From Streptococcus thermophilus (GTDB taxonomy: Bacteria > Bacillota > Bacilli > Lactobacillales > Streptococcaceae): 64,000 bases of DNA. Positions 46,547 through 60,691 of the stretch are shown in pieces. The notes under the pieces were generated by a model. It was not told where the DNA came from and did no database searches. It saw only the letters and a list, made by a program, of their open reading frames with translations. The stretch is taken from contig NZ_CP038020.1 in the NCBI RefSeq assembly GCF_010120595.1, positions 1,674,001 to 1,738,000 on the forward strand, given 5' to 3'. The position numbers and the translations under genes were made by a program. Every line of letters starts with the position of its first letter. The first letter of the stretch is position 1.

Positions 46547-48334
46547 TTAATGACTATCTTGGCTCAACTTATCTAATAAAGCTTGAGCTACTTTTTCAGG
46601 AATTCCAAGAGCTTGGATGTCTTCGACACTGGCTTGTTGGATAGCCGTCATTGATTTGAAGTTTTTGAGGAGTTTTTGTTTGCGTTTAGGTCCCAACCCC
46701 TCCACGCCATCAAGTTTGGAACTGAAACTATTCTTACTACGGACTTGTCGATGGAAGGTGATGGCAAAGCGGTGTACTTCATCCTGAATACGGTGAAGGA
46801 GGAAAAATTCCTCGGATTGACGTGGCAAATCAATGACTCGCAAGGGATCTCCAAAGAGCAATTCATTGGTTTGGTGCTTGTCATTTTTCTGAAGACCTGC
46901 AACCGGGATAGATAGATTCAGCTCATTACGAAGCACGTCCTTAGCGACATTGACCTGACCTTGACCACCATCCATGATAATGAGGTCTGGTGGGGTTAGA
47001 CCATCACGTTTGACACGACTATAACGGCGACGAATGACCTCACGCATGCTGGCATAATCGTCAGGCCCTTCAACCGTCTTAATCTTGTATTTGCGGTACT
47101 CTTTTTTATTAGGTTTGCCGTTCTCAAAAACGACCATGGCAGATACAGGGCTCGTTCCCATGATGTTAGAGTTATCGAAGGACTCGATGCGAACCGGTGT
47201 CGGAATTCCCATGAGTTTGCCTAGATTTTCAATGGCTCCTTGGGTCTTGGCTATATCTTTTTCAAGAAGATCAAATTTTTGAGTCAGGCTGACACGGGCA
47301 TTTTTCGTTGCCAGATTAACCAACTGCTTTTTCTCGCCTCTTTGCGGTTTAAAAATCTTGACTTCATCTCCGACCAGAGCTTCGACAGACTCTTGATCAA
47401 TGTCTCCAGGAATAAAAATTTCCCTAGGCTTAAGATGACGACTATCCAGGTAAAATTGACCCATATAGGTCAGAAAATCTTCCTCAGCATCATTATAGTA
47501 AGGGAACATATTGACATCACGCTGGATGAGTTTCCCTTGGCGAACAAAGAAAACTTGAACACACATCCAACCCTTGTCCACGTAGTAACCGAAGATATCA
47601 CGGTCCTGCATGTCCTGACGGATAACCCTTTGCTTGGTCCTCAGTGTCGATACCGCCTCAATCAAATCGCGATACTCCGCTGCACGCTCAAACTCCATCT
47701 GATCAGACATGTCCTTCATCTTGGCCTTAAGCTGGTTAACGATTTTATCATCATAACCGTTTAGAAAATTCTTGACATCCTCAACCAAACCTTGCCAATA
47801 GTCCTCAGTGGTGTGACAGATGGTGTGGGCATTACATTGGCCAATATGGTAATAGAAACAGACCTTGTTAGCAGGATTTTTACATTTCTTAAAGGGGAAA
47901 ATACGGTCCAACAGCTTCTTGATTTCATTGGCTGCACCAGAGTCTGGGTAAGGACCAAAATAGAGACCACCATCCTTCTTAACCTGGCGGGTAATCAAGA
48001 GCCTTGGATAGAGTTCCTTAGTAATCTTGATAAATGGATAAGACTTGCCATCCTTGAGGCGGATGTTGAATTTGGGCATATTCTCTTGGATGAGGTTAAT
48101 TTCCAAAAGCAAGGCCTCGATATTAGACTCGGTAACGATAAATTCAAAGTCTGCAATCTCGGATACCAGAAGCTCCGTCTTGGTATCATGACTTCCACGA
48201 AAATAGCTACGCACACGATTTTTTAGATTTTTAGCCTTACCGACATAGATAATATTGCCAAATTTGTCCTTATGGAGATAACATCCCGGGTTGTTTGGGA
48301 GCAATTCCAACTTATGTTTAATCAGATCGTTCAT
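46547..48334 (-). CDS. uvrC: Excinuclease ABC subunit C
   Basis: Makes both incisions in nucleotide excision repair with UvrAB. 595 residues: GIY-YIG nuclease ([19 protein letters not shown], 16-34), cysteine cluster near 150-170, UVR motif ([16 protein letters not shown]), RNase H-like nuclease domain ([19 protein letters not shown]) and C-terminal helix-hairpin-helix pair. Complete, single gene. Confidence 0.97.
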
Positions 48335-48393
48335 GCCCTCATTGTAACAAAAAAAGAGCAGAAAAGCTCTTCGAAATCATGGCTATCATAGCT

Positions 48394-49110
48394 CTACTTA
48401 GACAAAATTTTCAGGATTTCCTCATAGTTTTTGACTTGATAGGTTGGAACAGCTGGAGTCTTATTGACTAGGTTCCTTGGATTGAACCAGACACTATCAA
48501 TGCCTGCATTATTACCACCTTGGATATCAGCAGTTAGACTATCACCAATTATGAAAGCTGAGCTTGGATGAAAATCATGGACCTGATTGGTAATTTTAAC
48601 AAAAAAGTCTGTAGATGGTTTGTGGGCACCCACCTCATCAGAGATGAAAATATAGTCGAAGAAAGGTAAGATACTTGAAGCCTGCAGGCGGAAATGTTGG
48701 ATAAAACCAACTCCATTAGTTGCTGCATAAATCTTATGACCACGATCTTTGACATCCGCTAAAAAGCATAATCTTGAGGAAGTTCCTGCCCCTGTTGACT
48801 CAAAAAATGTTGGTAACGGCCAGCTAAGTGACTACCATCTACTTCTTTTCCAAAGTGCTCAAAGAGACGTGAAAAGCGCGTACGAAGTAATTCAGGATTT
48901 GTAAGCAAACCATGGTTGAGGTCTTCCCCACATGGCACGATTCATGGGAATATAGTAGTCTTTATAAACCTGAATCTCTTGGGAAGCCACACCAGCCTCT
49001 TCTAGTAGGAAAGTTAAGGCCAAATCTTCAGCACGGTCAAAATCTAGGAGAGTGTGGTCGAGGTCGAAAAGTAGGAATTTGTATGGCAAGAGTAATATTC
49101 TTTCAGAATT
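48394..49110 (-). pseudogene. HAD-family nucleotidase (YjjG-like), frameshifted
   Basis: Noncanonical pyrimidine nucleotidase type: KFLLFDLDHTLLDFDRAEDLAL carries HAD motif I, and the far part (GAHKPSTDFFVKI, FIIGDSLTADIQGGNNAG) carries motifs III and IV. The two ends are in different frames with at least two shifts between 48630 and 48900. The likely first codon is a TTG near 49086, where most relatives have ATG. Confidence 0.8.
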
Positions 49111-49276
49111 CATTCTGAGTTGATTATACAACAATCCCACAATCGTTGACATTCAGCTGACCAACCATTAAGACTACAAGGTGATTACCTGCCTACCACC
49201 ACATTATCAATGAAAATATTGACATCAGAGGTGACTTTTCATAAAAAAGTTAACGTAAAACATATAGGAGGTTAAC

Positions 49277-49818
49277 ATAAATAAACAAAACCTGTTCCAT
49301 AATCTTAATTGCACTAGGTGCTGCCTTAATCGTAGCTCTATCGCCATTTCAGATTGCTTTAGGACCTATTTCCTATCACACTTCAAACATTGGTAATCGG
49401 CTTAATTGCTACACTTATCGCCCTAAAGAAGCAACTCTTTCCGTTTTACTTTACCTTTTATTAGGAGAAATTGATCTACCAGTTTTCTCTGGTGGCAATG
49501 ATGGTCTTCACACCTTTATTGGACAAACTGGTGGATTTTTACTTTTCTTCCCACTAAGAGCATTAGTCACATCACTGATCGCAAATCGTAAGAAAAGCCT
49601 AATACAAATTTTCATCGCAAACTTTTTAGGTGAAGTGGTCATTTTCATCGGAGGTGCCATTGGCTTTATAATTTTCACTCACTCTCTTATCCTAACTACT
49701 CTAAAATTGGTAGTCCTACCATTTGTACTACCAGACTTCATCAAAATTACCTTAACAACACTATTTAGTCTCTTGTTACTAAAAGCACTTCAATCTCAGT
49801 CTTACTTTAAAATTTAAA
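49277..49818 (+). pseudogene. bioY: BioY biotin ECF S component, start lost and frameshifted
   Basis: Membrane S component for biotin uptake. An AGGAGG site is followed at 49277-49279 by ATA, where the start ATG would be expected. The reading then changes frame at least twice: ILIALGAALIVALSPFQIALGPI, ...TLVIGLIATL..., and finally YRPKEATLSVLLYLLLGEIDLPVFSGG to the end at 49818. The later part (HTFIGQTGGFLLFFPLRA) is clearly BioY-like. Biotin uptake by this gene is lost. Confidence 0.82.
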
Positions 49819-49827
49819 AATAGCTAA

Positions 49828-49890
49828 AAACACCACTCAGTCTGAAGGTATTTCGTAAAGAAACGGTTCAGGTTGGGTGGTTTTTTCTTG
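49828..49890. terminator. Bidirectional terminator between bioY remnant and the transport operon
   Basis: Imperfect stem CCACTCAGTCTGAA / TTCAGGTTGGGTGG with T-runs on both strands. The gap to 50057 otherwise shows nothing. Confidence 0.65.
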
Positions 49891-50057
49891 TCCATTTTTG
49901 CTCATTTTTCTTTAGTTAATCATTCCAAAAATTTTATACATTGCTACTACTAAGTAATTGTTGAAGAAGTCTTAACATGTCAACAAACGAATAAATAAAG
50001 ATGTATTTATTGAAATTACTAACGTTAATAAGCTAAAACACCAATAGTGTTAAATAT

Positions 50058-50684
50058 CTAAACAGAATATTCCTTTTGGAACAACTCTTCAACAAGACAA
50101 ATTATTAAGTTTGTCAATAAGCTTAGACCTACATTTAAGATAATTCCCCATAAAAGTTTTGTAAGATTCATCGTACGTAGCCCATCAAAGAGTATGACTC
50201 CGAGACCGCCTGCATTAATCGTTGCTCCAATTGTAGCGATTGCAATAATGGCAGTTGAAGCCAATCTTAAACCAGCGAAAAATGACTTTTGAGCTAAAGG
50301 AAATTGAATCTTTAACAAAATCTGCCACTTAGTCATCCCCATAGCCTTTGCTGCTTCAATAACATGTTTATCAACTTGTGATAGTCCTGACAAAAAAGTT
50401 CGAACTAAAATATATTGAGCATAAATAACTAAGACAATGATAGCTGTTGTTTGACCTAATCCCGTAATAGGTATCAAGAGAGCAAATAAAGCAAATGAAG
50501 GAATGGCATACATTAAAGAAAAAAGATAAATAGTAACATGACTAAATTCTTTATAAAAGTTAAGAAATATTGTAACAAAAATTGCTAATACAATTGCAGT
50601 AACTATCGCAATAAAACTTATCTCAATATGTTCTAGTAAAGCACTAAGAAATTCATCATAAGAATTTCTAAAAACATCAAACAT
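50058..50684 (-). CDS. Betaine-type (QAT) ABC transporter permease 2
   Basis: 208-residue inner-membrane permease of the OpuC/YehW family, about five helices, with the EAA-like loop EAAKAMGMTKWQILLKIQFPLA. Start set at MFDVFRNS (ATG at 50682-50684, GGGGGTAGGAAT upstream). Last gene of the operon and begins 4 bases after the ATPase stop. Its gene order (permease, binding protein, ATPase, permease) is that of YehZYXW/OpuC importers for quaternary ammonium compounds. The context (see 53070-57358) suggests a histidine-derived betaine as cargo. Confidence 0.88.
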   Translation of the reverse strand: MFDVFRNSYDEFLSALLEHIEISFIAIVTAIVLAIFVTIFLNFYKEFSHVTIYLFSLMYAIPSFALFALLIPITGLGQTTAIIVLVIYAQYILVRTFLSGLSQVDKHVIEAAKAMGMTKWQILLKIQFPLAQKSFFAGLRLASTAIIAIATIGATINAGGLGVILFDGLRTMNLTKLLWGIILNVGLSLLTNLIICLVEELFQKEYSV

Positions 50685-50688
50685 ATTC

Positions 50689-51444
50689 CTACCCCCATAA
50701 GCTTTCTTGGTTTTTGGCTGTATCAAGTAGTCGCTTAACAAAATCATTTGCAGGTTTCTTTAAAATGGCTTCTGGTGTATCAAATTGCGCAATTTTTCCT
50801 TCGTCCATAATCATAACTCGAGTTCCCAATTTAAATGCTTCGTAAATATCATGAGTGATAAAAACAAAGGTTTTATTTGGGTATGTTTTATGAATCGTCA
50901 ACAGTTCTTCTTGTAATTCACTTCTTGTAATGGCATCGATAGCCCCAAAAGGTTCGTCAAAAAGCGTCACACTGGGATCTGCAGCCAAAGCTCGTGCTAC
51001 TCCAACACGTTGCTGCTGACCACCAGATAATTCATTAGGATATCTCTTAGCATATTGATCATAAGGTAGCTTGATTAATGATAATAACTCTGACACACGC
51101 GCCTTTATTGTTTTTTTGTCCCAATTAAGTAATTTTGGAACAGTAGCGATGTTTTCTTCAACTGTCTGATGAGGAAAAAGTCCAATCTGTTGAACAACAT
51201 AACCTATACGACGTCGTAACGTAATTTCATCTAGCTGATCAATTTGGCTACCATCAAATATTACAGCTCCTGAGCTGGGTTCTATGAGACGATTTATCAT
51301 TTTTAAAGTAGTCGTTTTTCCAGATCCAGATGTACCTAAGATGGTAATAAATTCTCCTGTTTTTATCGAAAAATTAAGATTATCAATAACAATCTTATCA
51401 CCGTAACGCTTTGTCACATGATCAAATTTTATTATTTCTGTCAT
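50689..51444 (-). CDS. Betaine-type (QAT) ABC transporter ATPase
   Basis: 251 residues: Walker A GTSGSGKTT (35-43), Q-loop, signature LSGGQQQRVGVARAL, Walker B VTLFDEPFGAID, and switch His in FVFITHD. It is a short QAT ATPase without the C-terminal CBS pair of OpuCA/OpuAA, so osmotic gating is not expected. 11 bases downstream of the binding-protein gene. Confidence 0.92.
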   Translation of the reverse strand: MTEIIKFDHVTKRYGDKIVIDNLNFSIKTGEFITILGTSGSGKTTTLKMINRLIEPSSGAVIFDGSQIDQLDEITLRRRIGYVVQQIGLFPHQTVEENIATVPKLLNWDKKTIKARVSELLSLIKLPYDQYAKRYPNELSGGQQQRVGVARALAADPSVTLFDEPFGAIDAITRSELQEELLTIHKTYPNKTFVFITHDIYEAFKLGTRVMIMDEGKIAQFDTPEAILKKPANDFVKRLLDTAKNQESLWG

Positions 51445-51455
51445 ACATTTTCTCT

Positions 51456-52373
51456 CTATTTGATTGTTTTATAAAATTCTTGTGCTACTCTTTGATAGTT
51501 TTGACCCTCTACATCTACTTTAGCGTTAAGTTTAGTCACAGTCGCTGTATCCAATTTTTCAGAAATTTTGTTCAACGTACTTTCTATTTTCGGATTAGAC
51601 TTCAACACATCATCTCGAACTATAGGAGCCAAATTATAAGGGGGCCAAAAATTTTTGTCGTCTTTTAAAAGAAGATAATTATCTGTATTAACCAATTGAC
51701 CTTCAGTTGTATATGCCGGAGTGACATCAGCTTCTTTATTGTCTAAAACGGTGTATTTCAAGCTATTGTCATAAACCTTGGAAGACTTCCATGAAAAATC
51801 TCCATAAGTTTTAGCTAATCCAGGAATACCGTCCTCTCTCTGATCAAATTCACCTTGAGAAGCAAAATTCAACTCAGAGGCATGTTTTTGTAAGTCTGAA
51901 ATTGTCTTAATTCCCAGCTGATTTGCAATATCCGTTCGAATGACTAACCCTTGACCATCATTTGCTGAAGCATATTTCAACCAAGTTACCTTGAACTTTT
52001 TCTCATAGTCTTTTTTGACGGTTTCATATACTTTTTGAGAGTCTGTTTCCATCGGTTCTTTTAAGATTGAGAGTAAGCCAGTTCCCGTATATTCTGGATA
52101 CAAATCAATCTCTTTATTTATCAATGAACGATGAATCAAAGAACTAGAAATGTTAGAAACTCTCTGAACTTTATAGCCATTATCTTCTAAAGCTAAGGCA
52201 TAAATTTCAGCTACAACTAGATTTTCAGTAAAATCTTTAGATCCTATTCGTATTGTGGCATTCGTCTTAGAACTATTTACATTATGGGAATGTTTTCCTA
52301 CAAAAACAAAACCCGTCACAACACCAATAATAATAGCTAGTAAAATTCCTAAAAATAATTTTTTACGCTTCAT
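51456..52373 (-). CDS. Betaine-type ABC transporter substrate-binding protein
   Basis: 305 residues of the OpuAC/YehZ fold: IRIGSKDFTENLVVAEIYALALED at the start of the domain, LYPEYTGTGL, and YTTEGQLVNTDNYLLL. The N-terminus is basic plus one hydrophobic helix (6-27) without a lipobox cysteine, so it is probably held by an uncleaved signal anchor. Unlike many relatives it is not fused to the permease. Its start overlaps the permease stop by 4 bases. The pocket residues cannot be assigned by eye, so the ligand is inferred from the neighbours only. Confidence 0.88.
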   Translation of the reverse strand: MKRKKLFLGILLAIIIGVVTGFVFVGKHSHNVNSSKTNATIRIGSKDFTENLVVAEIYALALEDNGYKVQRVSNISSSLIHRSLINKEIDLYPEYTGTGLLSILKEPMETDSQKVYETVKKDYEKKFKVTWLKYASANDGQGLVIRTDIANQLGIKTISDLQKHASELNFASQGEFDQREDGIPGLAKTYGDFSWKSSKVYDNSLKYTVLDNKEADVTPAYTTEGQLVNTDNYLLLKDDKNFWPPYNLAPIVRDDVLKSNPKIESTLNKISEKLDTATVTKLNAKVDVEGQNYQRVAQEFYKTIK

Positions 52374-53029
52374 ATTTTATAACTCCTTTTCTTGTGTTTT
52401 TCAATAGGCAAACGACTGATTAGTAAGTCAAAAAGAATCATACTTATAAACGATAATAAAGCGACCGACCCACCACCAATTATCAGAAGATCATAGCGAT
52501 AAAGACCCAAACCTGTAAAAATGATTGTACCAAGTCCACCTGCACCAATATAAGTCGCAAGAGTGGCACTAGCAATTACTTCAATTAAAGCGAGTTTAAT
52601 TCCATTTAAGATATGTTGACTTGCTAAGGGAAACCCCAGTTTATATAATGTTTGCCACTTTGTCATTCCAAGTCCAGTAGCTGTCTCAATTAATATCTGT
52701 GGAACCTCATTAAACCCCACAATAGTGTTTAATAAAATAGGAGGAACTGCTAATACAACCAGAGCAATAATTGCAGGTAACCGGCCTACACCAATAAAAG
52801 GAATAAGAATAAACAATAGACCTAAACTAGGAATAACTCTCAAACCCTGAGTACAAAAACTAGCAACCTGTTTTAATTTAGGGTTTGAGAAGCTAAGATA
52901 ACCCAAAGGTAAACCAATTACTAAAGCAATCATCAAAGCCTCTCCACTTAACGCTACATGATCTCCAAGTATTTTGACATAATCCTTACCATGTTCTATA
53001 AAATACTGTTGTATTTGTTGAATGATCAC
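52370..53029 (-). CDS. Betaine-type (QAT) ABC transporter permease 1
   Basis: 219 residues, five to six helices, EAA-like loop ETATGLGMTKWQTLYKLGFPLA, followed by GAGGLGTIIFTGLGLY. Forms the channel with permease 2. Lies 40 bases after the lyase gene and overlaps the binding-protein gene by 4 bases, so it belongs to the same transcript as the enzymes. Confidence 0.9.
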   Translation of the reverse strand: MIIQQIQQYFIEHGKDYVKILGDHVALSGEALMIALVIGLPLGYLSFSNPKLKQVASFCTQGLRVIPSLGLLFILIPFIGVGRLPAIIALVVLAVPPILLNTIVGFNEVPQILIETATGLGMTKWQTLYKLGFPLASQHILNGIKLALIEVIASATLATYIGAGGLGTIIFTGLGLYRYDLLIIGGGSVALLSFISMILFDLLISRLPIEKHKKRSYKI

Positions 53030-53069
53030 CCTAATCTCCTTTTCATTACTGTATTCCCGTCTTTATCTA

Positions 53070-54581
53070 CTAAGCTGAGACGTAATCTTTAGTAAATAAA
53101 GTTCGTATACAAATTTTTCCTATATCTTTTGAAATACCTCTAATAACCTGATAAAGCATATGATGGTCTTGTAAAGTACCGTATCGTTCAAAGATTATTT
53201 GGAATACTTCATGAGTTAATAAACCTAAAGGTCTTTCCTCTGGAAAACGTATAGATATGGCTTGAGTAGCATAAAGTAACTCAATAGCCAAAATTTCGTG
53301 AAGTTTGTTTACAATTCCATCTAGTTCTTGAAGAATTAAAGGTAGGTTGGTTTGCCTATCTTCCATTTCTCCTGCCAAAGGATAGGAAATATTTGATAAA
53401 GTTTGACAAGCATGATGAATCTCAACATCTAAGGTAGCAGCCGTCTTTTGCAAAGCTTGTAATCCGAAATATTGGTGCTCATCGGCAATTAAAAAACGAC
53501 TCAAACCTGTAAAATCCGGATTACCTAGTTTAATCATACGTTGAATTGAAGCATTAGAAACATGACTCAAAGCAACGTTCAACATTTCAATCGCCAAACT
53601 AACATTTAATGTTTCAAAATGTGGTGTTGACAAAATACGTTGATTGTCAATATCAACCATTGGATTGTCATCAGATGACTCTAATTCAAGTAACAGTTGC
53701 TCCTCAACATACGATAAACTATCATAAGCGGCACCATGAATCAGTGTGGCATTTCTAAAGCTGAGAGGATCTTGAACCGTTTTTGTTTTATTATTTAATA
53801 AATAACTGTCCCTCAAGGCAGATTGAAAATGCTGACTACTTATGTTTTGACCATTGTGATGTTTCGCCTTAACCACCAAATCATCCAAAGGTGTTATATT
53901 TCCACCTAAAGCTTCTAAAGATAAACTACAGGCCAGATCAAACCAATACAAAAGATTTTTAATTTTTGGAATCAATAAAGATAATCGTGAAAACGAAACA
54001 GCATTTGAGCTAATTACCGCTAATCCATCTTTAGCATAAAAACGAATAGGTTTAAGATGAAGTCGCTTAAAAACTTCTCTAGCCTCATAGCGATTACCTT
54101 CATAATCAACAAGTCCTTCTCCCATTAATCCCAAACCTATATAAGATAAAATACCAATATCACCCTCACCAACAGAACCAAAGCCGTTTACAACTGGAGT
54201 AACTCCTAAATTCAAAAAATCAACTAAACGTTCTGGAATGGCAACCTGGATACCTGCGTATCCTTTAAGCATATTGTTAAGATGTATCAACATTGCTGCT
54301 CTAACATTATCAATAGATAGTTCTGGTTCAATTCCAACACAGTGGGCATAGATTAACTGACGATTAAATTCCTCAATTTTATCTTTCGGGATTTTTCTAT
54401 CCTTATTTTTACCAACACCAGTATTAAGACCATAAATCTGTTGCTGACTATCAAGAACCTGTAATACGACCTTCCTCGAAGCTTTGAGACGATGATAAGC
54501 TTCAGGAGCTATTGTCACTTTTTCCCCCTTAACTACACGTTCAATTGATTCAACGGTCAATCCGTATCCTGTTAATTCCAT
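53070..54581 (-). CDS. Histidine ammonia-lyase homologue lacking the MIO triad; candidate ergothionase-type lyase
   Basis: 503 residues, full length for the aromatic amino-acid lyase family. YGLNTGVG (50-57) matches the inner-loop tyrosine region of HutH. The segment that in HutH reads GSVG-ASG-DLAPL, from which the MIO cofactor forms, here reads GSVGEGDIGIL (135-145): Ala-Ser-Gly is gone and one residue is deleted. MIO cannot form, so ordinary histidine deamination is not expected. Ergothionase, which removes trimethylamine from ergothioneine, is a known MIO-free member of this family. The operon also has a urocanase homologue, a DUF917 gene and a betaine importer. Exact substrate is inference; other N- or S-methylated histidines are possible. 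Confidence 0.85.
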   Translation of the reverse strand: MELTGYGLTVESIERVVKGEKVTIAPEAYHRLKASRKVVLQVLDSQQQIYGLNTGVGKNKDRKIPKDKIEEFNRQLIYAHCVGIEPELSIDNVRAAMLIHLNNMLKGYAGIQVAIPERLVDFLNLGVTPVVNGFGSVGEGDIGILSYIGLGLMGEGLVDYEGNRYEAREVFKRLHLKPIRFYAKDGLAVISSNAVSFSRLSLLIPKIKNLLYWFDLACSLSLEALGGNITPLDDLVVKAKHHNGQNISSQHFQSALRDSYLLNNKTKTVQDPLSFRNATLIHGAAYDSLSYVEEQLLLELESSDDNPMVDIDNQRILSTPHFETLNVSLAIEMLNVALSHVSNASIQRMIKLGNPDFTGLSRFLIADEHQYFGLQALQKTAATLDVEIHHACQTLSNISYPLAGEMEDRQTNLPLILQELDGIVNKLHEILAIELLYATQAISIRFPEERPLGLLTHEVFQIIFERYGTLQDHHMLYQVIRGISKDIGKICIRTLFTKDYVSA

Positions 54582-54603
54582 ACCTTATCACCTAAATCGT
54601 AAC

Positions 54604-55707
54604 TTATTTGAAAGCATGTCTATACAAGTCTATACCTAAAACATTCTCTACTTCGGGGTAGACACTAGGATCCTTCACACCAGTACTTAACGGAAAATGT
54701 TTATGTGAAATTTTGAAAACAACAACTTCTTCGTCAATACTAATCTCGTCAGTACTCAAGGCCTTGGCATCTTTTGCCCTAAATAAAGTAATAACATCAG
54801 GATAAGTAGCAACACGTCCTAGTGCTTGACTATCTACAGCCATAAATTCATTTTGAACATGGAGCGTTACATTATCCGATTCAGTTTTTATTTTTACCTT
54901 ACCAACATCAAAAGCTTCATCGGTGTAAGTCATATCCTTGGCAATAACCTTACCTTTAGCTAAAATTTCTCCATGAGTATGCTTAACAATAGCATCAATA
55001 ATCGATGAACCATCTTCATTTTGATGTTCTAGTATGCAATATCCCAATTCAATAGCCTTAGATAAGCCTCCAATAACAGCATTCTGTTTGATATAAGATA
55101 CTGTGAGAGGATGACGGGCAGCAGCAATGAAACCGCCTGATAAATCCGAAGCTATTCGAAGAATTTTCGAAGTGTAAGCTGCCGTTCCTTGCACGGATAA
55201 CTCAATATGGCGACCTGTTTCACGACGTCCACCTGACACAGCTTGAATAGTTTCATAAGTCGTATCATTAGCTACACCCATATTTCCCATTTTTCCAGTA
55301 GGATGGGCTCTGATATCACCAGTAGCGTCAACAACAGCTAATCCCAATGCTGATGCTGATAGCCAACCGTTTGTCGAACTGGATTTTCCATTCTGAGGTG
55401 TTAATATACCTTTGATTTTTTCAGGATGGGGATGTTTCTCAAGGAGTAATTCTACCGCACGAATATAATCTTTTCCCAACATCTGCCAATCTGTTGTCCC
55501 AGCCGGTGCTCCAATTGCTGTTTGAGTGATAATCAAATCATCCTCTTCAAACTCATCAATAGTTTTTAAGACTACTGGAGATAATGCAACTGCTGCCTCT
55601 CCCATTTCAAGTCCGTGCTCATAAAAGCCACCGCCACCACTCGCATAAACGGAACCTCCAATACAAGCAGCTAACACATCGTTCTTAGTCAAATATTTTA
55701 TCGTCAT
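54604..55707 (-). CDS. DUF917 family protein (S-methyl thiohydantoin desulfurase-like)
   Basis: 367 residues, DUF917/S-Me-THD family, annotated in other genomes as hydantoinase-like. Visible: N-terminal glycine-rich YASGGGGFYEHG (21-32), TAIGAPAG near 63-70, RAHPTGKMGNMG near 133-144, and a C-terminal half with repeated beta segments. Members with known function remove sulfur from thiohydantoin acids formed when thiourocanates are hydrated. It lies between the hydratase (16 bases) and the lyase (22 bases), where the canonical hut pathway would need imidazolonepropionase. That placing supports a sulfur-bearing or methylated imidazole substrate. Confidence 0.82.
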   Translation of the reverse strand: MTIKYLTKNDVLAACIGGSVYASGGGGFYEHGLEMGEAAVALSPVVLKTIDEFEEDDLIITQTAIGAPAGTTDWQMLGKDYIRAVELLLEKHPHPEKIKGILTPQNGKSSSTNGWLSASALGLAVVDATGDIRAHPTGKMGNMGVANDTTYETIQAVSGGRRETGRHIELSVQGTAAYTSKILRIASDLSGGFIAAARHPLTVSYIKQNAVIGGLSKAIELGYCILEHQNEDGSSIIDAIVKHTHGEILAKGKVIAKDMTYTDEAFDVGKVKIKTESDNVTLHVQNEFMAVDSQALGRVATYPDVITLFRAKDAKALSTDEISIDEEVVVFKISHKHFPLSTGVKDPSVYPEVENVLGIDLYRHAFK

Positions 55708-55723
55708 TTAAAACTTCACTCCT

Positions 55724-57358
55724 TTATAAATGAACACGTCTAATACGTTTTTGCTCAATCTCGTCTAGAGATGCTTCATAGCCAGCATCCGCATAGCGAA
55801 GAACACCTAAGCTAGTGTCATTGGTAATTGATAACTGGAGACGTTCAGAAGCTTCATGTGTCCCATCAGCTACAACAGTAATACCAGCACTCTGCATATA
55901 ACCGGTGTATCCTCCTCCACCTGAATGGATAGCGACCAAATCTGCTTTAGACGATGCCGCTAACATGGCATTTAACAGTGGCCAGTCTGCAATGGCATCA
56001 GAACCATCTTTTAAATTCTCAGTCATAATATTAGGATGTGCCATAGCTCCAGCATCCAAATGATCACGTGTAAAGGCAACTGGTGCTGATAGAACACCTT
56101 CTGCTACTAAATCATTAACAGCTAAAGCTAATTGAGTTCTTTCCTCATGGCCTAACCATCCGATACGAGCAGGTAATCCTTGAAAAGGAACATACTTACG
56201 TGCTAATTTGATCCAATCTGTGATAATGGTATTATCTGAAAAGTGCTCTAAAAGATAATCATCAATAATGTGAATGTCCTTTGGATTCCCTGACAAGGCT
56301 ATCCAACGAAAAGGACCTATGGCTCTTTCAAATAGAGGTCTTAAGAAAGCTTCTGTAAAAATAGGAATATCGAAGGCATTCTCAACTCCGAACCTTTTTG
56401 CCTGTGTACGAATATTATTCCCATTATCAAAAACTTTAGCACCTTTATTTTGGAAAGAAAGAATTGCTCTGACTTCTTTAGCAATTGAAGCACCAGCATC
56501 AGATTCTAGTTTCTTTGGATTTGACTGACGAACTCGTATCACTTTTTCTAAAGAGTAATTTTCTGGAACATAGCCATAAAGAAGATCATGAGCTGCTGTC
56601 TGATCACTCACAATATCAGGAACGATTCCTCGATCTAAAATATCTTGATAGACTGTTGCTGCATTTCCGATAACTGCAATAGAAACATTTTCACCTTTTC
56701 TTTTAGCATCATCTATCCACGACAATGCTTGATCTAAACTATCAGTCTTTTTATCAACATAACCAATTGATAAACGCTTATCAATATTGTCTTCATTAAC
56801 ATCGACAACAATAATATTTGCACCCGCCATTTTAGCTGCCAGAGGTTGAGAACCACCCATTCCACCCATACCAGCAGTAAGAATTAATCTCCCTGACAAA
56901 TCATCGCTGAAATAAAGACGACTAATAGACTTAAAGATTTCATATGTTCCCTGTATGACGCCTTGTGAACCAATATACTGCCAATCTCCTGCAGTCAATC
57001 CACCCCAAGCAATTAAGTTTTTATCATACAAATCATAAAAATTTTCCGAAGTCGCCCACTTTCCAACTAAATTAGAATTAGCCATTATAACCAAGGGAGC
57101 ATCTGGATGTGTTTTTAAAATGCCTATAGGTTTCCCAGATTGTATAATTAAGGATTCATCTTCCTCAATCGTTTTTAAACTTTCGACAATAGCTTCATAC
57201 GACGACCAATCTCTTGCTGCTTTGCCTAGAGCACCATAAACGATAAGATTATCAGGATCTTCAGCATTTTCCAAAACATTTTCCAAGAGCCTAAGAAGCG
57301 CTTCTTGACGCCATCCCTTAGTTCTTAGTTGATTTCCTCTTTGTGCTTTTATCTTCAT
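55724..57358 (-). CDS. Urocanate hydratase homologue, divergent; candidate thiourocanate hydratase
   Basis: 544 residues, same fold and length as HutU. NAD+-binding TAGMGGMGGSQPLAAKMAGA (161-180) and RDHLDAGAMA (431-440) are kept. Differences from true urocanases: the conserved Cys of FCRGIGPFRW is Glu344 (FERAIGPFRW); the HHGGGVGMGFSQ stretch is HSGGGGYTGYMQ (478-489); YGQMTAGSW is WGGLTAGDW (118-126). These map to the substrate side, so a changed substrate is likely, for example thiourocanate or S-methyl thiourocanate. First gene of a seven-gene operon; no hutI, hutG or hut regulator is nearby. No obvious classical Shine-Dalgarno problem: AAAGGAAG stands before the ATG. Confidence 0.85.
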   Translation of the reverse strand: MKIKAQRGNQLRTKGWRQEALLRLLENVLENAEDPDNLIVYGALGKAARDWSSYEAIVESLKTIEEDESLIIQSGKPIGILKTHPDAPLVIMANSNLVGKWATSENFYDLYDKNLIAWGGLTAGDWQYIGSQGVIQGTYEIFKSISRLYFSDDLSGRLILTAGMGGMGGSQPLAAKMAGANIIVVDVNEDNIDKRLSIGYVDKKTDSLDQALSWIDDAKRKGENVSIAVIGNAATVYQDILDRGIVPDIVSDQTAAHDLLYGYVPENYSLEKVIRVRQSNPKKLESDAGASIAKEVRAILSFQNKGAKVFDNGNNIRTQAKRFGVENAFDIPIFTEAFLRPLFERAIGPFRWIALSGNPKDIHIIDDYLLEHFSDNTIITDWIKLARKYVPFQGLPARIGWLGHEERTQLALAVNDLVAEGVLSAPVAFTRDHLDAGAMAHPNIMTENLKDGSDAIADWPLLNAMLAASSKADLVAIHSGGGGYTGYMQSAGITVVADGTHEASERLQLSITNDTSLGVLRYADAGYEASLDEIEQKRIRRVHL

Positions 57359-57440
57359 CCCTGTACTTCCTTTTCTTTAAATATGTTTTTTATGTTATCA
57401 CCAAACAATTGTCTTGCATAAGCTATTTTTTTATGGCGCA

Positions 57441-57478
57441 TCATAAATAAAAGTTATGACCGATTGTAAAAGTTTCAA
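57441..57478 (-). promoter_or_regulatory. Candidate promoter and operator of the thio-imidazole operon
   Basis: On the minus strand, TTGAAA (57473-57478), 16-base spacer and TAACTT (57451-57456). An inverted repeat TCATAA-N7-TTATGA (57441-57459) covers the -10, a natural repressor site. No regulator gene is adjacent. Confidence 0.45.
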
Positions 57479-57516
57479 ATTATTCATGATTTATATTTCT
57501 CAATTGAAAACAAAAA

Positions 57517-57556
57517 TACCTCAATAATTGGAAAAAAAGTCCAATCATTGAGGTAC
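57517..57556 (-). terminator. Hairpin terminator upstream of the operon
   Basis: Stem ACCTCAAT-ATTGGA / TCCAAT-ATTGAGGT (one unpaired base per arm) with TATTTTTG on the minus strand. It blocks transcription from further right or could act as a leader attenuator. Confidence 0.7.
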
Positions 57557-57636
57557 GATTTATTATCTTAGTCCTAGTATAAAATTAATATGATTTTTCT
57601 GCCTTAGTTGAAATTGCTATAGCCTTCTTCTACCCA

Positions 57637-57664
57637 AAAAAGGACGACCCGCAGGCCGCCCTCT
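57637..57664 (-). terminator. Second, GC-rich terminator
   Basis: Minus-strand AGGGCGGCC-TGCG-GGTCGTCCT (two G-U pairs) followed by TTTTTT. No minus-strand gene precedes it now, so it may be left from a deleted gene. The rest of 57359-57842 is AT-rich; a TATACT -10 for sdaAB is at 57809-57814. Confidence 0.65.
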
Positions 57665-57842
57665 CTGATTTATGAAAAATAAGTATTGCTTACTTAATAG
57701 AACATTATTATATCTATTGAACCTTAAAGAAACCTTAAAATAAGTTATTTTTTTTATGGTTTCAATAGATTTTTACTTAAACAGCGAATCTCTCTAATTC
57801 ATGGTATACTGAAAATACAAGATTAATCAAACGAGGCGTGTT

Positions 57843-58193
57843 ATGAAAAATTTAAAATTTCAATCCGTTTTTGACATCATCAGTCCTGTCATGGTAGGGC
57901 CTTCCTCAAGCCATACTGCAGGAGCTGTTCGTATCGGAAAAATTGTTTCGGCAATCTTTGGTGATGCACCCACTGAAGTAGAATTTCAACTTTTTAATTC
58001 CTTTGCAAAAACCTATCGAGGTCATGGGACAGATGTGGCTCTTGTGGCTGGTATTTTAGGTATGGAAACTGATGATCCTGATATTCCGCATGCGCTTGAT
58101 ATTGCACACGAAAAAGGTATTAAGGTCTACTGGAAGATTAACAAAGACAGCAATGTACCGCATCCTAACACCACTCGTATTACACTAAAAAAT
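57843..58193 (+). pseudogene. sdaAB: L-serine dehydratase beta subunit, truncated
   Basis: First 117 residues of the iron-sulfur L-serine deaminase beta chain: FQSVFDIISPVMVGPSSSHTAG with the substrate serine motif, then YRGHGTDVALVAGILGM. Homology stops at ...TTRITLKN; the frame runs on to 58355 only through the opposite strand of the response-regulator gene. The C-terminal ACT-like part and the partner sdaAA are missing, so a deletion joined this gene to the two-component locus. Confidence 0.85.
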
Positions 58194-58267
58194 ACTTCAC
58201 TCTTACTAATTAATCTAATTTCAATTTTTAATTTAATCATAATGATAGAAAATTTACCTACTTCTCC

Positions 58268-58870
58268 TCATCCCAACCAGTCTTTTTCTTTGGCAATGCG
58301 GACAGCTTCTGTTCTGTTGCCTGCATCGAGTTTGGTCAGGATGGCTGTCATGTAATTTCGAACTGTTCCATTTGAGAGGAAGAGGCTTTCTGCGATTTCT
58401 TGGTTAGTTGAACCTTCGGCAACCATGACCAAGACTTCTTGTTCACGTTGGCTAAGTGGATTATTGTCAAAGGCGACACCTTCAACTAGCTCTGGCGAGT
58501 ACTCCTTTTGACCTGCTAGGACGGTATGGATGGTCGCCATAAGGTCACTGATGGAACGCTCTTTGAGCACATAAGCATCCACCTGGGCTGCAAGGGCTCG
58601 TTTAAAATAGCCTTTACGTTTGAAGGTGGTCACAATAACGACCTTCGTTTCTCTTTGGTTGGCACGGATCCACTCTAGGACATCAAGACCTGTCTTAACT
58701 GGCATTTCAATGTCTAAAATTGCTACGTCGACCTCTTCTTTTTTCAAGAGAGCAATGGCTTCTTGACCATCACTGGCCGCATGGACATCTTCGACATCGT
58801 CTTCCAACATGAGGAGTTGGCAGAGGGCATCCCTCAACATTGACTGGTCTTCGGCGACTAATAATTTCAT
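58268..58870 (-). CDS. LuxR/NarL-type response regulator
   Basis: 200 residues: receiver domain with phosphoacceptor Asp53 (VAILDIEMP) and C-terminal LuxR helix-turn-helix ([23 protein letters not shown], 135-157). Start overlaps the kinase stop by 4 bases. DesR/LiaR-like group. Likely controls its own cluster and the upstream palindromes at 62041-62069. Confidence 0.92.
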
Positions 58871-59961
58871 GCTTTTCCTCCCTCTTTCAAATGTACACGA
58901 ATAATGGTTGGATGCGATTGAGACAGAATTTCCAAGTCTCCATCTACCAAACTGAGACGCTCTCTGATACTGTGTAGCTCTTGTCCTGTGACTTCCTCAA
59001 AGCCACAACCATCATCCTCAATCTCAAGTACAATACCATGATCACGTCTTAGACGAATCTGACAGCTATCGGCCTGGCTATGTTTGATGACATTATTGGC
59101 CAGTTCACGAAGCACCATGGACAAGGTCGACTGGCTAACGGGTGACAGGCTGTCTAAATCAAGGCTACTATCCACGGTCAGGACGATATCAGATAGGTCA
59201 AAGAGCCGCTCAAGTTCCAGTAGCTCCTCGGCCACCGTTCGGTACTTGAGCTTATTGACAATCTCACGCACCTCGTACATGGAGTCTCGGCTGATCTGGT
59301 TCAATTCTTCCAGATTCTTTCTAGCAGCTTCATACTGCTCCTTGTCCATCTGTTTTAGAGCCAACTCGGTTTTAAGACTCATCATGGCAAAGGTATGCCC
59401 TAAGGTATCGTGCAAATCACGACCGATACGATTGCGTTCATTTTCAGCTGACAGGATATTAATGGTCCGATTCTGCTCCGCAAGGGCTTCTTCCATCTTT
59501 CTCTCCTGACGCATACGGTTTTGAAAATAGTACATTCCCAAAGAAAAGAGGGTAATAGCCATAGACATGAGATGGGTACTCAAATCGTCTGTCAGTAGGA
59601 AGGATGATGACGTCAAAATCAAGAGTGTCGCTATAAAGGATAAGAATCGATAAGAAGATATTCTATCCTCAAAGCGCCAAACGAGAAGATTAACATTGAA
59701 AAAAACAAACCACATCATGCCACCTTGGAAGGAAATGGACATAAAGATAATGTAAGCTAGAGTGTAAAACCACAGAAATGGAATCCACTTGCTATAAGCT
59801 TTTTTCAAATACACTATAAGGAGATAAGCGGTGGTAAACAGGCCCGTCAAAACTAGGGTCCAAACTGGAAAATACCCACCAAAAACTCCTAAGATCGGGA
59901 AGACAAGGAAAATCAGACTAACAAAATAAGCAAAATCATTTTTCTGGTATGTTCTAAACAT
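58867..59961 (-). CDS. Sensor histidine kinase (DesK/LiaS-like)
   Basis: 364 residues: five or six N-terminal membrane helices (about 10-150) with no large outer domain, then HisKA_3 dimerisation helix with phospho-His in [15 protein letters not shown] and an HATPase domain with the N-box [12 protein letters not shown]. Such kinases sense membrane state or their linked ABC transporter. I took the ATG at 59959-59961 (MFRTYQ); a GTG two codons earlier is possible. Its start overlaps the permease gene end. Confidence 0.9.
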
Positions 59962-60691
59962 GGTCACTTTCTCTGTACGATTTGATAAAAAGGGCTAAGC
60001 CTGTAGTTATTGTAGCAATGACCAAGATAAAAATGAGTGATTTCCATGAAAATTCCCCTTTTTTTGAGAAATTGACTACCAACTGATTAATATGATAGAT
60101 GGGTGTCCACTCCGAAATGTGCTGAACCCATTTTGGAAACATGGTAACTGGCATCCAAGAACCACCGATAATAGCAAGTCCAAGAAAGACGATATTTCCG
60201 ACGATAGCCATGATTTGTTGAGACTTAATTTGGGCTAGGAGTAAGCCAAAGGATAGGAAGACTAGACTTGACAAGAGTAAAAGAGCACCTGAACCGAGCC
60301 AATGTGATAATGGCATCTTAACATCACGCACAAAAGCTCCTACACAGAAAGTTACGATGATAGCAACCATAAAGTTCATAAGAACTCGGAAGATTTTAGA
60401 GAGATAGTAGGCCTGAATACTGATTTTTGAATGTTCGATGTAGGTTAACCAATGCTCCGTTTGATCCTCTCTAAGCATGTAGGGAAAGGTAAAGAAACCA
60501 AAGCTGGACATAGAGAATCCTGTCATCGTCAACATATAAGACAAGATAAAGGCTTTTTGTGACTCTGGGTCAGGACTCATTTCCATACCTGAATACAAGA
60601 GGAAAAATCCGACGGGCATTCCGATAGACATGATAAAGACGGGCCAACTGCGCCATGTTTTTATCCATTCGATTTTAAGTAGTGCTTTCAT
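59954..60691 (-). CDS. ABC-2 type transporter permease
   Basis: 245 residues, six membrane helices, ABC-2 family (drug, lantibiotic or lipid export type). GSWMPVTMFPKWVQHISEWTPIYHINQLVVNF near the end is the conserved ABC-2 segment. Overlaps the ATPase gene by 4 bases and the kinase gene by 8. A fragment of a close paralogue is found at 63657-63844. Confidence 0.88.
   Translation of the reverse strand: MKALLKIEWIKTWRSWPVFIMSIGMPVGFFLLYSGMEMSPDPESQKAFILSYMLTMTGFSMSSFGFFTFPYMLREDQTEHWLTYIEHSKISIQAYYLSKIFRVLMNFMVAIIVTFCVGAFVRDVKMPLSHWLGSGALLLLSSLVFLSFGLLLAQIKSQQIMAIVGNIVFLGLAIIGGSWMPVTMFPKWVQHISEWTPIYHINQLVVNFSKKGEFSWKSLIFILVIATITTGLALFIKSYRESDHV

Follow-up and report, generated by a model that had tools for sequence, protein, structure and literature searches.

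Do the seven genes at positions 50058-57358 of the window analysed here, a stretch of 64,000 nucleotides from Streptococcus thermophilus (contig NZ_CP038020.1), encode a partial degradation of histidine, as has been published, or do they serve the breakdown of ergothioneine (ET)? Judging from their sequences, the enzymes of this operon very probably represent steps A to C of the known ET pathway. Bacterial catabolism of ET in five steps was reportedly described by Beliaeva, Leisinger and Seebeck in 2021, and NCBI models now recognise two of the operon enzymes. The operon resembles that pathway in bringing together a lyase, a thiourocanate hydratase and a thiohydantoin desulfurase, with a quaternary-amine importer near many of the relatives; it differs in that the genome holds neither a hydantoin-5-propionate amidohydrolase nor an N-carbamyl-glutamate amidohydrolase above background. 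Evidently the same locus is the 8.6-kb region str/stu1308-1315 (bioY2, a transporter, hutH, one more gene and hutU), which is present in strains CNRZ1066 and LMG 18311 and absent from LMD-9. The available part of its description reads it as a proline/glycine transporter and a partial L-histidine degradation pathway whose later enzymes are missing, and calls str/stu1314 an oxidative-stress defence protein (Goh 2011, PMC3231929).

Reading of the open reading frames (ORFs) in the window bore out the original prediction of a seven-gene run, with all seven ORFs open and on the minus strand. Each of the families it had named was also matched, namely urocanase, DUF917/S-Me-THD, aromatic amino-acid lyase, two binding-protein-dependent (BPD) permeases, OpuAC and an ATP-binding cassette (ABC) ATPase. 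In the order of transcription, the genes are as follows.

55724..57358, minus strand: first gene, HutU (urocanase) homologue of 544 amino acids, predicted thiourocanate hydratase, step B of the Ert pathway (NF058530)
54604..55707, minus strand: DUF917 (S-Me-THD-like) protein of 367 amino acids, predicted thiohydantoin desulfurase, step C (NF058529)
53070..54581, minus strand: lyase of the histidine ammonia-lyase (HAL) family, 503 amino acids, free of the 4-methylideneimidazole-5-one (MIO) triad A-S-G and similar to 6s7j, candidate ergothionase, step A
52370..53029, minus strand: ABC permease 1, GTG start, 219 amino acids (PF00528, 85.1 bits; best NCBIfam model ProW, below cut-off)
51456..52373, minus strand: quaternary-amine binding protein of the OpuAC family, 305 amino acids (PF04069)
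50689..51444, minus strand: ABC ATPase of 251 amino acids, CBS domain undetected (TIGR01186, Pfam ABC_tran)
50058..50747, minus strand: ABC permease 2, for which the ATG at 50684 is the better start (PF00528, 67 bits)

From 5' to 3' these genes are spaced by 16, 22 and 40 bases, a 4-base overlap and 11 bases. At the last junction the longest ORF of the second permease overlaps its neighbour by 59 bases, while the internal ATG at 50684, with GGGGGTAGGA directly before it, leaves a gap of 4 bases. Ribosome-binding sites are plausible for most of the seven ORFs. The run is not a product of chance, since it recurs in a second species: Streptococcus saliviloxodontae has all seven genes in identical order. 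The three enzymes are also present in Streptococcus ferus, and in both species the hydratase and the desulfurase exceed the same cut-offs as the window proteins.

In NCBIfam release 20.0, enzymes acting on thio and on S-methyl-thio substrates have models of their own. The HutU-like protein passed the thiourocanate hydratase model NF058530 with 1025.8 bits (cut-off 930) and failed its S-methyl counterpart (753.5 bits, cut-off 880); it passed the general hutU model as well (723.3 bits, cut-off 375), at about 300 bits under the thiourocanate score. Its best relative in the PDB is 7ned, at 820 bits versus 609.5 for 2fkn, and the window protein has in common with 7ned the motif IHSGGGGY, which reads HHGGGVG in 2fkn, 1x87 and 7jfz. 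The molecule in 7ned is named only 'Urocanate hydratase', and no paper naming that entry was found among the literature matches listed. The DUF917 protein passed the thiohydantoin desulfurase model NF058529 (561.2 bits, cut-off 440) and failed the S-methyl model NF058532 (293.1 bits, cut-off 450), and is thus of the thiohydantoin type and not of the S-methyl type named in the original prediction. With both S-methyl models failed and both unmethylated ones passed, specificity for S-methyl-ET was rejected.

The lyase belongs to the aromatic amino-acid lyases (PF00221, 429.6 bits), and its nearest PDB entry is the ergothionase of Treponema denticola, 6s7j, at 295.8 bits, followed by the probable HAL 7tqr at 179.2. 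The Ala-Ser-Gly triad, from which the MIO group of HAL is formed, is replaced by a two-residue Glu-Gly, one residue shorter, and two residues stand at this position in 119 of the 120 lyase relatives listed out of 1650 matched, P0017 being unalignable there. Moreover, the lyase and 6s7j share N59-K60-D61, E139, D185, N193 and L273, positions at which the three compared HALs differ. Membership in HutH was rejected because the triad is absent and the hutH cut-off was missed (292.5 bits against 539.15). An MIO-free, ergothionase-like lyase had been foreseen in the original prediction and is supported by the lost triad, the closest solved relative and the failed hutH model; its wider claim of thio-imidazole catabolism, that is of ET, holds for the enzymes on the strength of the thio-substrate cut-offs, the MIO loss and the likeness to 6s7j.

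From these assignments we infer the reactions in this organism, the import of ET and the use of its sulfur. The transporter would bring in ET or a very near thiohistidine betaine, from which the MIO-free lyase would eliminate trimethylamine to give thiourocanate (step A); the urocanase relative would hydrate thiourocanate to thiohydantoin propionate (step B), and the DUF917 enzyme would take the sulfur off as sulfide, leaving hydantoin-5-propionate (step C). Trimethylamine and the hydantoin would be waste, and the reduced sulfur would feed the synthesis of cysteine or homocysteine. The chemistry of these steps is that generally associated with the pathway and with the names of the enzyme families. 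ET catabolism has also been reported from gut bacteria (Feng 2025 JACS; Zhou 2025 Cell Host Microbe), and in the available part of the paper that describes this work (PMC13405746) ET is likewise converted to trimethylamine and thiourocanate, with sulfide released in Feng's pathway; the present host differs in being a dairy streptococcus.

Which gain could the cell draw from a pathway ending at step C? The enzymes that would follow, named ErtD and ErtE after NCBIfam, are illustrated by an Aeribacillus locus (L028), whose neighbouring genes encode the N-carbamyl-L-glutamate amidohydrolase ErtE (570.3 bits, cut-off 520) and an ErtD-like hydantoin-5-propionate amidohydrolase that stays below the cut-off on both ErtD models (533.7 versus 650 and 499.9 versus 600 bits). 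In genome-wide searches of S. thermophilus, S. saliviloxodontae, S. ferus and Lactococcus hircilactis, the best ErtD scores (NF058538) were 132-139 bits versus 500 in Aeribacillus, and those for ErtE (NF058540) were under 42 versus 570. Within the S. thermophilus genome itself, ErtD reached 137.9 bits (cut-off 600) at the place of the dihydroorotase and ErtE 27.5 bits (cut-off 520), and the complete five-step pathway was not found there. The lactic acid bacteria examined thus appear to carry a short A-C form of the ET pathway, with no D or E above background. As the two hydrolases leading on to glutamate were not found, the likely gain would be reduced sulfur; that the short operon is a sulfur-harvesting variant is a tentative reading, somewhat short of probable. 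The genome encodes an O-acetylhomoserine sulfhydrylase (650 bits).

The genome was also searched for the enzymes of ordinary histidine degradation that had been predicted to be missing. PF01979 has three matches, named by NCBIfam as urease alpha, dihydroorotase and NagA, and as all three are other enzymes there is no HutI among them, in agreement with the prediction. For hutG the outcome is narrower, as there is only no obvious copy: PF00491 finds one arginase-family protein, for which a HutG role is disfavoured because its neighbour resembles a radical-SAM maturase (neither protein has an NCBIfam match at E<=1e-50). The maturase-like protein overlaps the arginase-family gene (L152:116-1953), and the two are possibly a peptide-modifying pair.

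The association of these genes extends beyond the streptococci. A scan with the lyase gave 351 confirmed candidates, from which 80 loci were kept (L008-L087), and 29 of these have a DUF917 gene in the fetched stretch. Among the 29, a quaternary-amine binding protein is present in 24 and the hydratase in 25, with a 26th at L075; ErtD- and ErtE-like genes, called at 250 bits to the L028 proteins, accompany 13 loci, an ErtD-like gene alone two, and neither the remaining 14. Within Streptococcus the operon is rare, since NF058529 was found only in the genome studied here out of 36 genomes of the genus. Across 398 genomes of the class, NF058529 exceeded its cut-off in nine and a close binding protein (E<=1e-60) was found in 16. 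Seven genomes have both (G000, G124, G143, G144, G174, G268 and G294), and in six of these the two genes share a contig, about 8 kb apart at most; in G268 and G220 the binding protein that adjoins the cluster is instead a more distant one (31-32% identity).

Further features of these loci were recorded. In the other 51 of the 80 MIO-free lyase loci, mostly from anaerobes, the sequence fetched, which is short for some contigs, holds no relative of DUF917, and at L023, L029 and L048 two lyase-family genes lie close together. Nucleoside-hydrolase genes (PF01156) are found in or beside Bacillales Ert clusters at L018:6097-7053, L027:20342-21283 and L065:11511-12482, which could point to a glycosylated substrate; L027 also has a gene whose match to an alpha-galactosidase model stays under the cut-off. 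At L104:5439-6794 a luciferase-like monooxygenase (PF00296) stands just before an Ert cluster that has no ErtD/E-like match nearby.

The locus of Lc. hircilactis (L079:4683-14179) is the best independent indication both of ET as the substrate and of a demand for its sulfur. It encodes a hydratase, an O-acetylhomoserine sulfhydrylase, a DUF917 protein, a MetQ-like lipoprotein, a lyase, a fused permease/binding protein and an ATPase. The fused protein is a homologue of EgtU, with 255 bits to EgtUC, and it has KLG, EFTGT and TY as in EgtU, with D in place of N339.

Two elements were noted in the region upstream of the first gene.

57414..57434, minus strand: upstream footprint ATAAAAAAATAGCTTATGCAA, similar across the three Streptococcus species in alignment
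57440..57460, unstranded: ATAA-N7-TTAT element weakly resembling the operator of CmbR, the cysteine repressor (16/21 matches to the pneumococcal consensus)

The footprint has one match in the window and none in 100 shuffles, and the shorter pattern ATAAAANAWTN{2,5}TTATG has one match in the genome and three for its reversed control; as both patterns were written from the site itself, these counts are not independent evidence. The operator consensus, GYGATAAAAAWWAYTTATMAC, derives from pneumococcal work (PMC5131005, available part). Its best upstream scores are 16/21 in the window, 17 in S. saliviloxodontae and 18 in S. ferus, with shuffle P values of 0.097, 0.008 and 0/2000, and these scores are reached by 2/46, 1/19 and 2/14 upstream regions, respectively. 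The 64-kb window holds seven sites at 16/21, and allowing up to three mismatches the genome has eight matches, as has the reversed control. Control by CmbR stays a weak lead, because the genome count equals that of the control and the site in the window is not significant; the available portions of the sulfur-regulon literature make no mention of this locus. Rfam gave no match at gathering score over positions 47000-60000. Transcription from upstream may stop at 57556-57516, where a hairpin is followed by a T tail, although terminator-like matches in the region are no more frequent than in shuffles (five versus a mean of 4.8). It is conceivable, if not quite probable, that lactic acid bacteria possess a deliberately short, sulfur-controlled A-C pathway mining ET for sulfide, which Lc. 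hircilactis has wired to EgtU and homocysteine synthesis and for which the streptococci have exchanged EgtU for another importer.

Several results weigh against the ET reading or its sulfur-harvesting form. No NCBIfam model calls the window lyase, or any of nine other lyases tested, an ergothionase, and for this reason step A rests on 6s7j and the shared motifs. In a FastTree phylogeny the streptococcal lyases are sister to a pair formed by Lc. hircilactis and an Enterococcus metagenome-assembled genome (support 0.988); the window lyase groups apart from the three HALs, but the backbone is weak and 6s7j falls at a distance from the streptococcal lyases. The long branch of the HALs joins the tree beside the streptococcal and Lactococcus lyases (support 0.846), a placement that may reflect long-branch attraction. 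The hydratase of Lc. hircilactis misses the cut-off (901.1 bits against 930), and an in-frame stop interrupts it shortly before the end. Regarding the later steps, the genome-wide ErtD search used NF058538, one of two ErtD models (the other being NF058539); moreover, none of the seven genomes searched, Aeribacillus included, reached the ErtD cut-off, so the absence of ErtD rests on the score gap. Finally, the 14 of 29 loci without nearby ErtD or ErtE include Bacillales, and their absence is therefore not peculiar to lactic acid bacteria.

The importer contributes further points of this kind, and here an alternative has to be weighed, in which the enzymes degrade ET and the transporter is a co-opted general importer of quaternary amines (glycine betaine, carnitine, choline) with ET as one of several substrates. 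The binding protein scores 221.4 bits on PF04069, against a gathering score of 21.2, and is thus an OpuAC family member; the ATPase gives 298.1 bits on the proV subfamily model TIGR01186, below the cut-off of 326.6. The reference is EgtU, the ET transporter of Streptococcus pneumoniae, which is described as highly specific for ET and supplies the residue roles used here (PMC9732360, available part, where many Firmicutes are thought to import ET for use as a thiol). Both are OpuAC-type quaternary-amine importers. In alignment, the window protein keeps the equivalents of E375, R379, D381, Y419 and Y443 of EgtUC, and it differs in having F (F48) for G244, Y (in EYTGT) for F293 and Q (in NDGQGL) for Y341, and in being separate, unfused to a permease. 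Membership in EgtU was rejected on these grounds. A general importer would also fit the best PDB matches, which are acetylcholine/nicotine-sensor scaffolds (198.7 bits versus 131.9 for EgtUC), and the setting of the relatives: among 98 Streptococcus genomes, nine have a relative at >=64% identity, two of which adjoin the enzymes and seven of which do not within about 9 kb, and of the four closest non-streptococcal relatives (60-62%, among the 398 class genomes) the three that were read all lie away from Ert genes, G188 being unread. Other findings speak against a general importer. The binding protein has no further relative in the genome at E<=0.001, and the Pfam scan of the ATPase matched ABC_tran and no CBS domain, a domain that the ATPases of osmoregulated OpuA and OpuC systems carry. 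The EgtU-type fused protein (an open frame of at least 500 amino acids) occurs in only 1/9 Streptococcus genomes with this importer type versus 72/89 of the others (Fisher P 5e-5, uncorrected for shared ancestry). Furthermore, N-x-x-Q in place of N-x-T-Y is common to nine Ert-linked binding proteins (L018, L027, L028, L052, L065, L073, L082, L084 and L103), though not to L038 (NDSN) or the other Ert-linked type (L011, L014, L035, L063, L102 and L104). A general importer is a serious but rather doubtful explanation, and we hold import of ET by this transporter with moderate confidence; of the predicted ET importer, the quaternary-amine type was upheld and the specificity for ET was not, given the three absent EgtU marker residues and a subfamily that seldom adjoins Ert genes. 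At L098:8322-12796 and L099:4619-8615, relatives that stand alone have zinc-type dehydrogenase genes as neighbours of the importer, with a GNAT gene too in L098.

The remaining alternatives concern the pathway as a whole. Ordinary, if partial, histidine degradation would accord with the general hutU score and the published 2011 annotation (PMC3231929, available part), but the lyase without its triad, the failed hutH model, the margin of some 300 bits for thiourocanate and the lack of a HutI among the three PF01979 proteins make it extremely improbable. It is improbable, to a lesser degree, that the operon serves a compound related to ET rather than ET itself, for instance selenoneine, S-methyl-ET or a different thiohistidine betaine: models specific for a substrate exist only for the second and third enzymes, leaving the lyase and the importer aside, yet the outcome of the four models is on the unmethylated side, and Lc. 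hircilactis pairs related enzymes with a homologue of a transporter that, in the available account of the pneumococcal protein, is highly ET-specific (PMC9732360). The operon might also be a decaying remnant without present function. Its flanks are degraded: a serine dehydratase beta chain (PF03315) adjoins it as a mere fragment on the plus strand at 57843-58355, and there is no ORF above 60 amino acids at 49320-49830, where bioY2 is reported for other strains and the window may hold a broken copy; moreover, the region is absent from one strain (PMC3231929, available part). This is nevertheless decidedly improbable in view of the seven open ORFs, the ribosome-binding sites of most of them, and a lyase cluster at 99% identity with 673 members.

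ET catabolism encoded by the operon is consequently the reading retained here, and its relation to the literature is twofold. The original prediction held that the system was undescribed in S. thermophilus; this does not apply to the locus, printed in 2011 for two strains as a partial histidine pathway, and it does apply to the ET reading, as no report of ET catabolism in this species appeared among the matches listed in a search that covered subscription papers thinly. Not seen in print are four points taken together: ET catabolism as the reading for a dairy streptococcus, the absence of steps D and E, an importer of another kind, and the parallel in Lc. hircilactis. In its available part, a 2026 paper (PMC13405746) gives ergothionase as definitively identified in Burkholderia, Cupriavidus, A. 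radiobacter and T. denticola, and cautions that homologues may escape notice where they are divergent or poorly annotated.

If the ET reading is true, the 2011 annotation as histidine degradation would be replaced, and S. thermophilus would be a possible source of trimethylamine beyond the ergothionase organisms listed in the available part of PMC13405746. The difference between strains, with the region present in CNRZ1066 and LMG 18311 and absent from LMD-9 (PMC3231929, available part), offers a natural control. A common yogurt starter would then consume the dietary antioxidant ET while giving off trimethylamine, and the effect of fermented dairy on dietary ET would change.

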